This document shows, one piece after another, positions 21,571 to 55,908 of a stretch of 64,000 nucleotides of DNA. This DNA is from Levilactobacillus angrenensis (GTDB lineage Bacteria; Bacillota; Bacilli; Lactobacillales; Lactobacillaceae), in the NCBI RefSeq assembly GCF_003946085.1, contig NZ_RHOB01000004.1, positions 62,001 to 126,000 on the forward strand, given 5' to 3'. Numbering within the stretch: position 1 is the stretch's first letter; each line of letters opens with the position of its first letter. The notes under the pieces were generated by a model. The model ran no database searches. It saw only the letters and a list, made by a program, of their open reading frames with translations, and was not told the origin of the DNA. The position numbers were made by a program, and so were the translations under genes.

Positions 21571-21803
21571 TTGCCGCCTTACCGTTGCGCAAAATCTAGG
21601 CTGGAACGCTGGGGGAGGACGGCCCGAGCTGTAACCAGCTGTGTCGACGCAGTTAGCTGACGTTTCACAGTCAGGTTACTGCGTGGGCGACTTGGAAGAC
21701 TTGCGCATTTGGCAAGGCTTGCCAAGCGAGGTGGAAGCCCGTCTTTTGGCTGGAACCGTCCCCCACAGCAGGTGGAAGCTCTGGCAGCCGCAGGCACTGG
21801 CTT
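21571..21803 (+). repeat. Structured intergenic repeat, partial copy A (hybrid)
   Basis: The left part (GCCGCCTTACCGTTGCGCAA...GGAACGCTGGGGG) matches the left arm of the type II copies at 32.6 and 24.8 kb. The right part, from CAGCTGTGTCGACG through GCGACTTGGAAGAC to CCCACAGCAGGTGGAA, matches the second module of the 55.6-55.8 kb copy. It therefore looks like a recombinant or eroded member. It fills the gap between tetR and the dUTPase-like gene; the 72-residue frame inside it is not considered real. Confidence 0.7.
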
Positions 21804-24340: not shown

Positions 24341-24425
24341 GTGACACTGGCCGCCTTGCCGTTCGCTGAATGTGGGTTGAAGCGCTGAGACGCCGGGCCG
24401 AGCCATAGAACGGTCTCGGGACTCT
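24341..24425 (+). repeat. Structured intergenic repeat, truncated type II copy
   Basis: CTGGCCGCCTTGCCGTTCGC...GGGTTGAAGCGCTGAGACGCCGGGCCGAGCC...CGGTCTCGGG matches the first 80 bp of the copy at 32638-32841. It then stops. A complete copy in the opposite orientation lies 240 bp away, so the two form a large inverted pair. Confidence 0.75.
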
Positions 24426-24660
24426 CACGGCCATGATGACGCGTGCCACAACAATCAGTTCAAATTCAGCTGTCAGTGACTATTTCAACGGAACTCCCTA
24501 CAAATCAGCCTGCAGCGCAAACGTTTCAGTTACCAGGTAATTCCTCATCTTGCAACGAATTTAGACGTTGGCCTGCCCGCGGTCACAGCAGCAAGTAACG
24601 GTAACGCCAATCATTTCGGCTGGCGCAGTCACTTGCTGGTTAACTCTATGTTTATGACTA
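24426..24660. other. Non-coding spacer between inverted repeat copies
   Basis: No gene, promoter or terminator that I can support lies here. The stretch separates a truncated plus-oriented and a complete minus-oriented copy of the structured repeat, upstream of the 24174 gene and downstream of glnA. Confidence 0.5.
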
Positions 24661-24868
24661 CCGCTACCGTAGCCGATAGTTCGCTAGAGATGAGTTCAGC
24701 CGTGGGCGTTTTCTAAGTGGCACGACCCTAGCCACTTAGAAAACTGGCAACTTGGAGACGTGACCCATCGGCTCCAAGTTGCCGGTCGAGACCGCTCTTT
24801 GGCTCGGCCCGACGCCCACCGCGTTCCAACTCATCTCTAGCGAACGGCAAGGCGGCCAGCTCTCACTG
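24661..24868 (-). repeat. Structured intergenic repeat, complete type II copy (inverted)
   Basis: Read on the minus strand it aligns along its whole length with the 32638-32841 copy. The outer arms GTTCGCTAGAGATGAGTT and AACTCATCTCTAGCGAAC pair perfectly. Inner stems include AACTTGGAG/CTCCAAGTT and GTTTTCTAAGTGGC/GCCACTTAGAAAAC. Base differences from the other copy are compensated on the opposite strand of each stem. Confidence 0.85.
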
Positions 24869-28943: not shown

Positions 28944-29000
28944 GGTTTAAGTCGATTGTCACTGGCCTCGTAGCCAAAACGTGCATCAACAGGCAACCGA

Positions 29001-29260
29001 TGGTGCAAAAAAAATAGTCGTTTACAGCTTCGTAGTTTGAGCTGGCCCCCTACCGTCCGCCAACTATGGGTTGGAACGCGGTGGGCGGACCGGACCGAGC
29101 CTGAAAAGCGGTCTCGGCCTCGCTTTGAGCCGGAAACCCGCCTCTCAGGCTGAAGGTGTTCCCCAGAGCAGGCGGAACCCTGGCTGACGCAGGCCCTGGT
29201 TTCACTAATTTTAGTGGACAAAACACCGTCGGCTCCGGGAGCCAAGGTATTAATTCAGCT
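29001..29260 (+). repeat. Structured intergenic repeat, copy D
   Basis: It shares AGTCGTTTACAGCTTCGTAG, GTCCGCCAACTATGGGTT, GGAACGCGGTGGGCGGACCG, the CCGAG/CTCGG hairpin and the end module GGCTGACGCAGG...CACTAATTTTAGTG...GACAAAACACCGTC with the other copies. It ends in AAGGTATTAATTCAGC like the 38.7-39.1 kb copy. The middle is recombinant: the outer stem's 3' arm is replaced by the second module. It lies between convergent genes. Confidence 0.8.
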
Positions 29261-29267
29261 TCCTAAC

Positions 29268-29306
29268 AAAAAATGAGCCTGGGAGGCTTGTCCCGGCTCA
29301 TTTTTT
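29268..29306. terminator. Terminator of the rhodanese-like gene
   Basis: A symmetric stem AAAAAATGAGCC/GGCTCATTTTTT, with T runs on both strands, lies 15 bp past the stop of the minus-strand gene. It may also back up the plus-strand unit. Confidence 0.88.
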
Positions 29307-32637: not shown

Positions 32638-32841
32638 CTGGCCGCCTTGCCGTTCGCTAGAGATGGGTTGGAACGCTGAGGGCGTCGGCCCGAGCCATAG
32701 AGCGGTCTCGGACCTCACCTTGGAGCCGATAAATCGCGTCTCCAAGGTGCCAGTTTTCTAAGCGCCATGAACCCCGCCGCTAAGAAAACTCCCACAGCTG
32801 AACTCATCTCTAGCAAACTATCGGCTACGGTAGCGCTTGTC
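32638..32841 (+). repeat. Structured intergenic repeat, complete type II copy C
   Basis: Outer arms GTTCGCTAGAGATGGGTT (32652-32669) and AACTCATCTCTAGCAAAC (32801-32818) pair with two wobble/mismatch positions. Inside are CCGAG/CTCGG, ACCTTGGAG/CTCCAAGGT (32717-32725, 32740-32748) and GTTTTCTAAGCG/CGCTAAGAAAAC (32753-32764, 32778-32789). It lies between pbp and rpmG, and open frames across it have no gene features. Confidence 0.85.
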
Positions 32842-35537: not shown

Positions 35538-35813
35538 GCTAAAGATGAATCTCAACTAGAAACATTGTCACCACACACACCTCATAACGTAAAAATTTGT
35601 CGTTTACAGCTTCGGCGTTCAAGCTGGCCGCCTACCGTCCGCCAACTATGGGTTGGAACGCGGTGGGCGGACCGGAAGACCGCTCCTCAGGCTGGAGGTG
35701 TTCCCCATAGCAGGCGGAATCTCTGGCTGACGCAGGCTCCTGGTTTCGCTAATTTTAGCGGACAGAACACTGTCGGTCCAGGGACTATCGCGTTAATGCT
35801 ACTTTCTTTAGTC
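35538..35813 (+). repeat. Structured intergenic repeat, copy E
   Basis: It starts GCTAAAGATGAAT, then AACTAGAAACATTGTCACCA, GTCGTTTACAGCTTCG and the conserved left arm GTCCGCCAACTATGGGTT. Here the arm can only pair locally with GGGCGGAC. The second module follows (CCGCTCCTCAGGCTGGAGG, CCCATAGCAGGCGG), then CGCTAATTTTAGCG and GACAGAACACTGTC. The CACTA/TAGTG stem of other copies is CGCTA/TAGCG here, a paired change. It occupies the divergent pbp/yfhO intergenic region. Confidence 0.82.
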
Positions 35814-38638: not shown

Positions 38639-38649
38639 TTGCAACAAAC

Positions 38650-38697
38650 AAAACCACTGCAGCCTCACATGATGAGGTTGCGGTGGTTTTGTTTTAC
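38650..38697 (+). terminator. Terminator after the YfhO-type gene
   Basis: AAACCACTGCAGCCTCA and TGAGGTTGCGGTGGTTTT form an 18-bp stem with loop CATGA, followed by GTTTT. It lies 13 bp past the stop. Confidence 0.9.
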
Positions 38698-38703
38698 ACA
38701 TTA

Positions 38704-39138
38704 TCTGAAGGGTGAAAGATGAATATCAACTAGAAATGTTGTCACCATGCGACTGATGCCATTAAAATTAGTCGTTTACAGCTTCGTAGCGAAGAATGGC
38801 CGCCTACCGTCCGCCAACTATGGGTTGGAACGCGGTGGGCGGACCGACCGAGCCTGAGAAACGGTCTCGGCCTCGCTTTGAGCCGAAATCCCACGTCTCA
38901 AAGACGCCAGCTGCCTAAGCGGCATGAATCGCGCCGCTAAGGCAACTCCCACGGCTGAACCCATATTTGGCGGACTCTCGGCTACTAAGGTATGTACTAG
39001 CAACAGTCGGCTTAGCCCCAGATGGTGATTGATTTAGCGACTGATCTCTAACACAATTGTTGCTGACGCAGGCTCCTGGTTTCACTAGTCTTAGTGAACA
39101 GAACGTCGTCACTCCGGAGGGCAAGGTATTAATTCAGC
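38704..39138 (+). repeat. Structured intergenic repeat, long type I copy F
   Basis: Starts with the inverted-end sequence CTGAAGGGTGAAAG. The outer arms GTCCGCCAACTATGGGTT (38809-38826) and AACCCATATTTGGCGGAC (38958-38975) pair with one mismatch. Inner stems are CCGAG/CTCGG, CTTTGAG/CTCAAAG (38876-38882, 38897-38903) and GCCTAAGCGGC/GCCGCTAAGGC (38913-38923, 38933-38943). The right part carries GCTGACGCAGGCTCCTGG and CACTAGTCTTAGTG and ends AAGGTATTAATTCAGC. It lies between convergent genes. Confidence 0.88.
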
Positions 39139-39194
39139 GATCAATTATCAATAGCTCCGCCAAGTATGAGCTAGATTACTATCGGCCAACAGCA

Positions 39195-39228
39195 GAAAAA
39201 AACCACCAACCAACGCGGTCAGTGGTTG
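39195..39228 (-). terminator. Terminator after the HesB-like gene
   Basis: On the minus strand AACCAC and GTGGTT pair around a T/G-rich loop, followed by TTTTT, 12 bp past the stop codon. Confidence 0.65.
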
Positions 39229-47465: not shown

Positions 47466-47665
47466 GTTATGCTGGCCGCCTATCTAGCAAACTCTCGGCC
47501 ACCTAAGTTCACGCCAGTAACCAGTGACTTAGCCCTAGTTAGCAATCCATTGGGCGCTTAATTTCTAAATTAACTGAAGGTTGAAAGTAGCACTAACGCG
47601 GCAATTCCCGGAACGACAGTGTTCTGTCCACTGAAATTAGTGAAACCAGGAGCCTGCGTCAGCCA
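47466..47665 (-). repeat. Structured intergenic repeat, composite remnant H
   Basis: 47466-47540 looks like a deleted core: CTGGCCGCC runs straight into TAGCAAACTCTCGGCCACC. 47572-47665 is an end module in reverse orientation: AACTGAAGGTTGAAAG, GACAGTGTTCTGTC, CCACTGAAATTAGTGAA, CCAGGAGCCTGCGTCAGCC. That is the reverse complement of the right ends of the copies at 35.8 and 55.8 kb. It ends 27 bp from the stop of the methyltransferase gene. Confidence 0.75.
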
Positions 47666-47692
47666 AGCCTCAAACTATTCTAGGGAGGGCTG

Positions 47693-55170: not shown

Positions 55171-55253
55171 CTTGTCGCCATAGTAGACGAAACCCTCTGG
55201 TCGACACTGGTTGCTGATTTTGCTAATTTCAATGGATAAAACATTGTCATACC

Positions 55254-55900
55254 AACTGAAGGTTGAAAGATAAAAATCAGCTAGAAACATTATCACCACG
55301 CGACTCGTGATGTAAAAATTAGTCGTTTACAACAACCCTAGTGAGAACTGGCCGCCTACCGTCCGCCAACTATGGGTTGGAACGCGGTGGACGGACCGGA
55401 CCGAGCCTGAGAAGCGGTCTCGGCCTCGCTTTGAGCCGAATAACACGTCTCAAAGACGCCAGTTGTCTAAGCGGCATGAACCCGCGCCGCTAAGACAACT
55501 CCCACGGCTGAACCCATATTTGGCGGACTCTCGGCTACAAGTGTGCTTACCAGTAAAAGTCGGCCTAACCCCAGGCAGCAGCTGATTTAGCAACCAGTCT
55601 TTGACTAACACAATGGTGTTAATAATCGCTAACCCGCTGGAGGCAGCCAGAGATGGAGCCAGCTGTGTCGACGGTGTTGGCTGAGGTTCTTTCTCAGCCT
55701 ACAGCGTGGGACGACTTGGAAGACTGGCGGGTTGTGCCAGGCTTCAAAGCGAACCGGAAGACCGCTCCTCAGGCTGGAGGTGTTCCCCATAGCAGGCGGA
55801 ATCTCTGGCTGACGTAGGCTCCTGTTTTCGCTAACTTTAGTGGACAGAACACAATATTGTTCCGAGAATTGCCACGTTAGCACTACTTTCAACCTTTAGA
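55254..55900 (+). repeat. Structured intergenic repeat, longest copy G with inverted ends
   Basis: The ends AACTGAAGGTTGAAAG (55254-55269) and CTTTCAACCTTTAGA (55886-55900) are inverted. The first module holds the outer arms (55361-55378 with 55511-55528), CCGAG/CTCGG, CTTTGAG/CTCAAAG and GTCTAAGCGGC/GCCGCTAAGAC (55465-55475, 55486-55496). The second module (about 55640-55830) matches the copies at 21.6 and 35.7 kb. The end module has CGCTAACTTTAGTG. At 55205-55253 an eroded second end module abuts it. No plausible protein is encoded. It lies between convergent genes. Confidence 0.88.
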
Positions 55901-55908
55901 TACCGAGA

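Follow-up and report, generated by a model that had tools for sequence, protein, structure and literature searches.

MITEs with a folded, probably RNA-level cargo in Levilactobacillus angrenensis and related bacteria

Our analysis indicates that a family of dispersed intergenic repeats in Levilactobacillus angrenensis consists of MITEs, a reading that sequence comparison all but settles as far as mobility is concerned. The window, that is, the whole 64,000-nucleotide stretch analysed, corresponds to G000:C34:62001-126000 of a 2.80-Mb draft genome in 62 contigs. The full element measures about 640 bp, ends in terminal inverted repeats of 14 bp, contains no gene, and carries two inverted copies of one unit of about 180 nt. 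Taken as a whole, the explanation that we find probable is a MITE carrying a folded RNA that is partly kept by the host. More tentatively, and less likely than not, the units could represent a new class of branched RNA of about 180 nt that was spread among lactic acid bacteria by IS4-type MITEs and kept by hosts at hundreds of loci per genome after mobility was lost. If true, a mobile element would have given rise to RNA devices throughout the genome, each under selection for its fold.

Anatomy and abundance of the element

A single profile, built from 18 L. angrenensis copies, matched all nine loci for which the initial annotation had proposed one architecture, an outer stem enclosing three hairpins (window coordinates equal C34 coordinates minus 62000). 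The loci do form one repeat family, but the whole architecture is not present in all nine. It is complete at 24.67-24.86, 32.64-32.83, 38.80-38.99, and 55.35-55.54 kb, with units of the B type at 21.61-21.79 and 55.64-55.82 kb, while the loci at 24.3, 29.0, 35.5, and 47.5 kb are truncated or are deletion derivatives. The copy at 38704-39138, under which the family had been listed, is internally deleted and has no right inverted repeat that we could see; the full form lies at 55256-55899 and belongs to a set of 18 full or near-full L. angrenensis copies that can be aligned over about 640 bp. Its ends are CTRAAGGTTGAAAG in inverted orientation. Two features had gone unnoticed: the second half repeats the same unit in inverted form, and inverted repeats bound the element. 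The features of the window are as follows.

55249..55255, no strand: left target duplication ATACCAA, imperfect (6/7), from the end-pair test
55256..55899, plus: full-length MITE with two inverted structured units, aligned with 17 other L. angrenensis copies
55256..55269, plus: left terminal inverted repeat CTGAAGGTTGAAAG, exact pattern match
55349..55538, minus: structured unit A, with the minus strand constrained, i.e., outward to the left (covariance model R2, 164.4 bits)
55539..55634, no strand: variable linker between units A and B (18.7% off consensus in 59 L. angrenensis rows)
55635..55818, plus: structured unit B, the inverted homologue of A, with the plus strand constrained, i.e., outward to the right (model R1, 205.9 bits)
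55886..55899, minus: right terminal inverted repeat CTAAAGGTTGAAAG, which reads CTTTCAACCTTTAG on the plus strand, exact pattern match
55900..55906, no strand: right target duplication ATACCGA, imperfect (6/7), from the end-pair test
38646..38694, no strand: terminator-like hairpin behind yfhO, adjoining the insertion (inverted repeat, 91% over 22 nt, then a T run)
38705..39138, plus: copy with a left inverted repeat (one mismatch) and a complete unit A but lacking the right inverted repeat and most of unit B (sequence and profile)
38797..38985, minus: the complete unit A of that copy, with the minus strand constrained (R2, 161.8 bits)
32639..32828, minus: solitary unit of an older subfamily, also in L. 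brevis CD0817, where it is partly deleted (R2, 147.9 bits, and alignment)
24669..24858, plus: right unit of an old doublet, with an orthologue in L. brevis CD0817 (R2, 140.7 bits, minus strand)
24347..24425, minus: truncated left unit of the 24.3-24.9 kb doublet (R2, 37.9 bits over 24348-24480)
21607..21794, plus: unit of the B type that follows the 5' arm of a unit of the A type (R1, 136.7 bits)
28972..29268, plus: deletion derivative that joins 5' A to 3' B (pieces 27-189 and 499-639 of the profile)
35541..35808, plus: deletion derivative with the same kind of junction as 28972-29268 (profile pieces 14-147 and 495-636)
47484..47686, no strand: fragments including an outer arm, with an exact inverted repeat at 47574-47587 (profile and pattern match)

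The relationship between the two halves was evident from cross-matches of the covariance models. Model R1, built from B, reached as much as 59 bits (E 6e-13) on the opposite strand of block A, compared with an echo level of roughly 18-35 bits on the reverse of its own block. In the other direction, R2 scored 25.8 bits on block B of L. angrenensis, which is not above the echoes; in other genomes the best units scored 50-57 bits, and here too the match was to the opposite strand. Furthermore, when A was aligned with reversed B, the stems came in the same order and shared motifs. From these matches and this alignment we conclude that one unit, doubled in inverted orientation, makes the element a doublet.

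Many L. angrenensis copies are deletion derivatives. Similar junctions recur, running from about profile position 145-189 to 487-502, at 28972-29268 and 35541-35808 in the window and at C34:13952-14283 and C23:42017-42289. One derivative (L063:13954-14279) has kept both inverted repeats and a 9-bp duplication, and short forms may therefore move too. As had been claimed, no copy appears to encode a protein: the longest open stretches in the 18 copies span 74-108 codons, within the range of shuffled sequences (66-119), and the core lengths of 21 Levilactobacillus copies represent all three frames.

The element is abundant. Probing the L. angrenensis genome with one copy returned at least 40 matches (all 40 positive among the best 40 of 234 candidates), and in 577 kb sampled from contigs C34, C23, and C1 we counted 63 elements that make up 3.3% of the bases. 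Extrapolated from this sample, the genome would hold about 300 elements. At about 3% of the sampled sequence, this is a heavy element load for a bacterium.

Ends, insertion sites, and the presumed transposase

Several lines of evidence point to transposition. The exact 14-bp end occurred 83 times in L. angrenensis and 324 times in G350, one of two genomes from another genus (the second being G342) that we examined closely; the reversed-pattern control gave 0 in both. Perfect target duplications flanked 14 of 26 inverted-repeat pairs from L. angrenensis and relatives (five of 7 bp, seven of 8 bp, and two of 9 bp), against 0.2, 0.5, and 0 expected for these lengths after shuffling partners. Empty sites were found as well. 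The place of the 55256-55899 copy is a 99-bp gap with no profile match in L. brevis CD0817, and upstream of yfhO, where the 35541-35808 copy sits, L. suantsaiihabitans has 21 bp instead of about 350 bp. The YfhO protein encoded between two element copies is 95% identical to the versions of both species, which marks the genome as a Levilactobacillus. In G350, sixteen elements of about 320 bp contain a single unit and have a mean identity of 85%; 9 of the 16 have perfect 7-9 bp duplications, and the low divergence of their ends follows from having chosen them by exact ends. Among the 100 of 324 G350 ends listed, distances of about 320 bp are frequent.

Exact ends were also present in four of six further Levilactobacillus genomes. 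They were not found in L. brevis CD0817 (G030; genome described in PMC6534642) or in G014, though both genomes hold units, and the 27 doublets inspected in G342 showed no target duplications above chance. We read these copies, which lack exact ends or target duplications, as old.

A candidate for the mover came from another Levilactobacillus, in which an intact 1559-bp element (L315) has ends identical to those of the MITE and a perfect 8-bp duplication, CTGATTAA. Its transposase matches NF049925 (E 7.6e-141), with a DDE_5 domain and a YREK motif, Y-2-R-3-E-6-K, that reads YARRWQIEGYFKVAK; 64 and 114 nt lie beside the open reading frame (ORF). The ISPepr1 row in PMC2266710 gives lengths of 1500-1600 bp, ends of the form YT-AA-YTT---A (5'-CT), duplications of 7-8 bp, and AT-rich targets. 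The length of L315 (1559 bp), its 8-bp duplication, the CT end, and the AT-rich targets agree with that row, and CTAAAGGTTGAAAG matches the fixed positions of the ISPepr1 end given there except the seventh, which is G rather than Y (PMC2266710). The MITE is very probably mobilised by a transposase acting in trans, an IS4-family enzyme that resembles the ISPepr1 type.

L315, the sole intact partner that we found with identical ends, belongs to a species other than L. angrenensis. In the L. angrenensis genome, a transposase fragment (G000:C30:2076-2522, L319) beside a perfect MITE end was the one trace of the mover that we saw; as a draft, this genome could hide more transposase copies. A survey of 30 genomes with NF049925 gave matches in 13, of which 4 were over the cut-off, with three full-length open copies. 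Decayed transposases lie near the same exact end in L. angrenensis (C30), G350, G297, G005, G016, and G029, and in G350 two ends 1052 bp apart surround a broken IS4-family transposase. Distant relatives of L315 (60-80% identity) occur in 33 plasmid records; the MITE itself had no match in the plasmids or phages searched. Two full-length relatives of the transposase (L316, L317) have a variant inverted repeat, CTGAAACTTGAAAG, and a second set of MITEs with that end could exist. L. brevis CD0817 has fourteen equal weak matches to the IS4 model, a 440-aa open frame in 14 places, which is probably a different multi-copy insertion sequence.

Other places were considered for an autonomous copy and set aside. 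A 3.9-kb end pair at C61 encloses what look like ordinary genes. No transposase was obvious by eye among the longest open stretches of 24 wider end-like pairs (3.1 Mb of loci), and at C1:97073 an end that has no unit beside it resembles a remnant. Two G342 regions bounded by distant units contain ordinary-looking genes and one TnpB-like ORF, the 389-aa frame at L204:772-1941, which resembles TnpB by its motif. Three long G350 pairs hold a possible surface protein (SlpA below the cut-off), a transporter-like protein judged by eye, and the broken IS4 transposase; with 100 of the 324 ends listed, further long pairs may exist.

The arrangement is also reminiscent of REPINs, for which the mover would be a Y1 tyrosine transposase associated with REPs and able to recognise the folded strand. 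G342 indeed has inverted doublets of a folded repeat along with solitary units, and Y1 transposases occur in 23 of 34 Levilactobacillus genomes. Yet Y1_Tnp gave 0 matches in L. angrenensis, G342, and G297 and only a 34-residue fragment in G350, and what we found instead were inverted repeats, target duplications, and an IS4-type partner. Although a Y1 gene could have been lost from L. angrenensis or fall into a gap of the assembly, we regard the REPIN reading as extremely unlikely.

A conserved fold and its constrained strand

The unit is predicted to form a branched structure with a closing or inner stem and three hairpins. The stem variants on which the annotation had relied are present, namely GCCTAAG/CTAAGGC at 38.9 kb, GTCTAAG/CTAAGAC at 55.5 kb, and TTCTAAG/CTAAGAA at 32.8 kb, as well as CTTTGAG/CTCAAAG versus CTTGGAG/CTCCAAG. 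Across alignments of 20 and 21 sequences from eleven Levilactobacillus genomes, L. angrenensis included, changes on both sides with pairing kept were seen at 21 of 51 and 26 of 58 pairs (G010b, at a contig end, was left out of the multi-species core and G030b, with a rearranged third hairpin, out of alignment A1). We evaluated covariation with a home-made stand-in for R-scape, in which column changes were re-dealt on a FastTree tree in 40 simulations. Above this null, 10/51, 11/58, and 30/58 pairs were significant in three alignments, as opposed to 0/14797, 0/15591, and 0/13368 of the other column pairs, so that the proposal of covarying stems stands by this phylogenetic measure.

The G342 units gave a similar picture. 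Among 108 model matches, in an alignment that is fitted to the model and includes one echo of the reverse strand as well as matches truncated where a stretch ends, 96.4% of pair cells were standard and 48/58 pairs had double changes; slid controls gave 33-46% and 13-19 pairs. The nearest-copy and tree-null tests for G342 used the 103 of 108 matches with at least 150 letters, and three poorly supported pairs were left out of the nearest-copy and wobble counts. Between nearest copies, 4685 pairs included 457 that had changed on both sides and still paired, 144 that had changed on one side and still paired, and 103 that were broken.

Wobble pairs indicate which strand is constrained. Considering pairs predicted on both strands in Levilactobacillus, the plus strand of unit A has 23 A.C versus 4 G.T, and the plus strand of unit B has 39 G.T versus 2 A.C. 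Other pair sets gave the same direction, A.C:G.T ranging between 32:26 and 44:4 in unit A and G.T:A.C between 43:11 and 56:2 in unit B, and the weakest asymmetry (A.C 32 vs. G.T 26) came from the plus-strand-only set of unit A. Because unit A is inverted, the two counts agree that the constrained strand reads from the linker outward. The same strand stands out in G342 (G.T vs. A.C of 37:9 in left, 44:6 in right, and 73:14 in solitary units) and in G350 (65 vs. 6, with the structure predicted on that strand). Summed over outward strands, G.T:A.C is 62:6 in Levilactobacillus, 154:29 in G342, and 65:6 in G350, counts in which copies are not independent of one another, so that p-values give no more than a rough guide.

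It could be argued that compensatory pairs arise without function, through hairpin-templated (quasi-palindrome) repair in an ordinary MITE. Such repair can alter both arms of a stem in one event and could be the source of some of the double changes. Repair of palindromes at the DNA level, however, does not predict a preference for G.T over A.C on one strand (62:6, 154:29, 65:6), and unpaired motifs of the unit are conserved as well; we consider this explanation quite improbable. Strand-specific single-stranded DNA would predict the asymmetry, since it also tolerates G.T, and is an alternative to RNA on this point. On balance, the pattern of substitutions argues that the unit is likely to be under selection at the RNA level; transcription itself is predicted. 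The annotation had left the repeat as a structured RNA, a mobile element, or both, and the evidence supports both, on the RNA side through covariation and the one-strand wobble asymmetry.

Retention of the units and what they may do

Whether the fold matters only while the element moves, or also after insertion, bears directly on its function. In the young L. angrenensis family (134 matches reduced to 88 that were distinct with at least 120 aligned positions, and then to 59 with at least 85% identity), units A and B diverge from the consensus by 4.3% and 6.7%, compared with 14-19% in the linker and flanks. Private changes amount to 0.84% and 0.89% in the units and 1.3-1.5% in the linker and flanks. 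This deficit of private changes in units, only about 40%, means that single young copies may be under weak selection. Divergence in G350 is 9.8% for the unit and 28% for the linker.

In G342, the outer flanks are no longer common to copies (4/106) and the inverted repeats are gone, with one end (at most one mismatch) in 500 kb. An orthologous comparison was available for the unit at 24669-24858, which shares 157 of 183 sites with its L. brevis CD0817 counterpart, compared with 121 of 210 in the linker. For this single copy, whose structure was predicted from the same two sequences, 58 of 65 stem pairs are unchanged, 5 have changes on both sides, 2 have a change on one side that leaves them paired, and 0 are broken; 14 of 53 unpaired sites differ. 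In addition, a 20-kb synteny test showed that several species have a copy at some sites whereas G342 alone has one at others, and thus copies both come and stay.

The fold may serve transposition only, with the transposase or a host factor binding the unit as RNA or single-stranded DNA and old copies descending from well-folded sources. The unit lies near the inverted repeat and almost abuts it in the G350 copy L286 (about 17852 and 17860), young families are more conserved in units than in linkers, and private changes are only moderately rarer in units. Yet no unit was found in the autonomous insertion sequence (IS) with the same ends, R1 having no match inside the IS loci, and the structure is intact in G342 copies without inverted repeats and in the one orthologous copy. 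We therefore view a role in transposition alone as rather unlikely and lean toward a function that is kept in place in old copies. The series from fresh copies in G350 to old copies without inverted repeats in G342 offers a natural setting in which to ask when selfish DNA becomes useful RNA.

The family is widespread. DNA-level matches occur in 28 of 35 Levilactobacillus genomes, and model R1 matches 79 of 397 genomes and 9 of 40 genera of the family; in the order, 14 of 345 genomes match, two of them outside the family and weak. G342 has 108 model matches in 500 kb, where adjacent units are arranged as -+ in 28 cases, -- in 3, and +- in 2 (one of the latter being a reverse-strand echo).

Genomic context differed between the two best-sampled genomes, for which gene calls came from a greedy ORF list rather than from annotation. 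L. angrenensis elements (57 of the 63, the other 6 overlapping an ORF) are rare between divergent genes (4/57 vs. a background of 66/293), and in tandem gene pairs 13 follow the profile direction and 24 oppose it. Of the 63 elements, 25 have a terminator-like site no more than 110 bp away, compared with 18% of 900 random intergenic points. For G342, where 25 of 28 doublets and 43 of 52 solitary units could be counted, doublets do not avoid divergent genes (9/25; background 47/204), and solitary units in tandem pairs have no clear orientation (17 sense, 10 antisense). Because G342 units are not consistently oriented relative to genes, they are unlikely to act strictly as 3'-UTR elements, and we claim no fixed regulatory role. 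Each unit might alternatively be an independent gene for a trans-acting small RNA, as the strong fold, the many copies, and the inconsistent cis context in G342 could suggest. We judge this improbable, as no conserved promoter-like hexamer precedes the G342 units (no promoter-like peak upstream of 102 of 108) and linkers are variable.

We therefore return to a MITE with a folded RNA cargo. Under this model, an IS4-family transposase of the ISPepr1 type would recognise the 14-bp end CTRAAGGTTGAAAG and move the MITE in trans, and insertion would duplicate 7-9 bp of an AT-rich, mostly intergenic target. The cargo, absent from the IS, would be one RNA unit of about 180 nt in the 320-bp form or two inverted units in the 640-bp form, the constrained strand of each running from the linker to the near element end. 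Transcription that crosses the element would make the unit RNA, whose compact fold may be retained because it benefits the cell or shields the transcript; in this way, old copies would outlive their inverted repeats. We infer the action of the transposase on these ends, the transcription of units, and the use of the fold after insertion, and any single molecular role, such as transcript ending or insulation, is doubtful. Because the MITE, its likely transposase, and the RNA are linked in food-associated, easily grown bacteria, both movement and RNA function are directly testable.

Our searches are consistent with the view that the family had no name. A relaxed Rfam search (release 15) of 38640-39200 returned three matches, all far below gathering scores, and when 19 loci of other genomes were searched up to E 1, none of the matches fell on a unit. 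The literature that we searched by title and abstract start does not describe the repeat family, and no named MITE matched it. At the gathering threshold, the only Rfam match in the window is a ribosomal protein L21 leader (RF00559, 20681-20759, minus strand). Near but outside a unit of another genome, L103:758-855 matches rli23 above the cut-off (68.9 bits).

The HEARO and omega RNAs of IscB-TnpB elements are likewise structured RNAs at the end of a mobile element, but those elements are not known to have inverted repeats or to duplicate their targets, and our unit gave no Rfam match. BOX, RUP, and Correia repeats are non-autonomous intergenic repeats of bacteria whose folds are shorter and simpler than the unit described here. 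The MRSC-65-2 motif is also a structured repeat with many copies per genome that is thought to be selfish, but as described in PMC11109978 it is a single long stem and our unit is branched, a distinction drawn from description rather than from sequence. REPINs and their RAYT transposases share with our element the inverted folded doublets, the many copies per genome, the largely intergenic location, and the compensatory changes (PMC3116915 for REPINs as inverted doublets with such changes). The REPs in PMC3733652 measure 20-40 bp, however, whereas our units measure about 180 nt with several helices, and L. angrenensis has no Y1 transposase match. The closest likeness is in the shell of ISPepr1-type IS4 MITEs, with 14-bp inverted repeats and a 5'-CT end, 7-9 bp AT-rich duplications, no ORF, and a 1559-bp IS with identical ends. 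The difference is in the interior, which is not an IS remnant but one or two folded units with an apparent RNA-level constraint. MITEs are usually viewed as empty shells of insertion sequences; in this case, the shell seems to bear an elaborate RNA that has no counterpart in its presumed mover.
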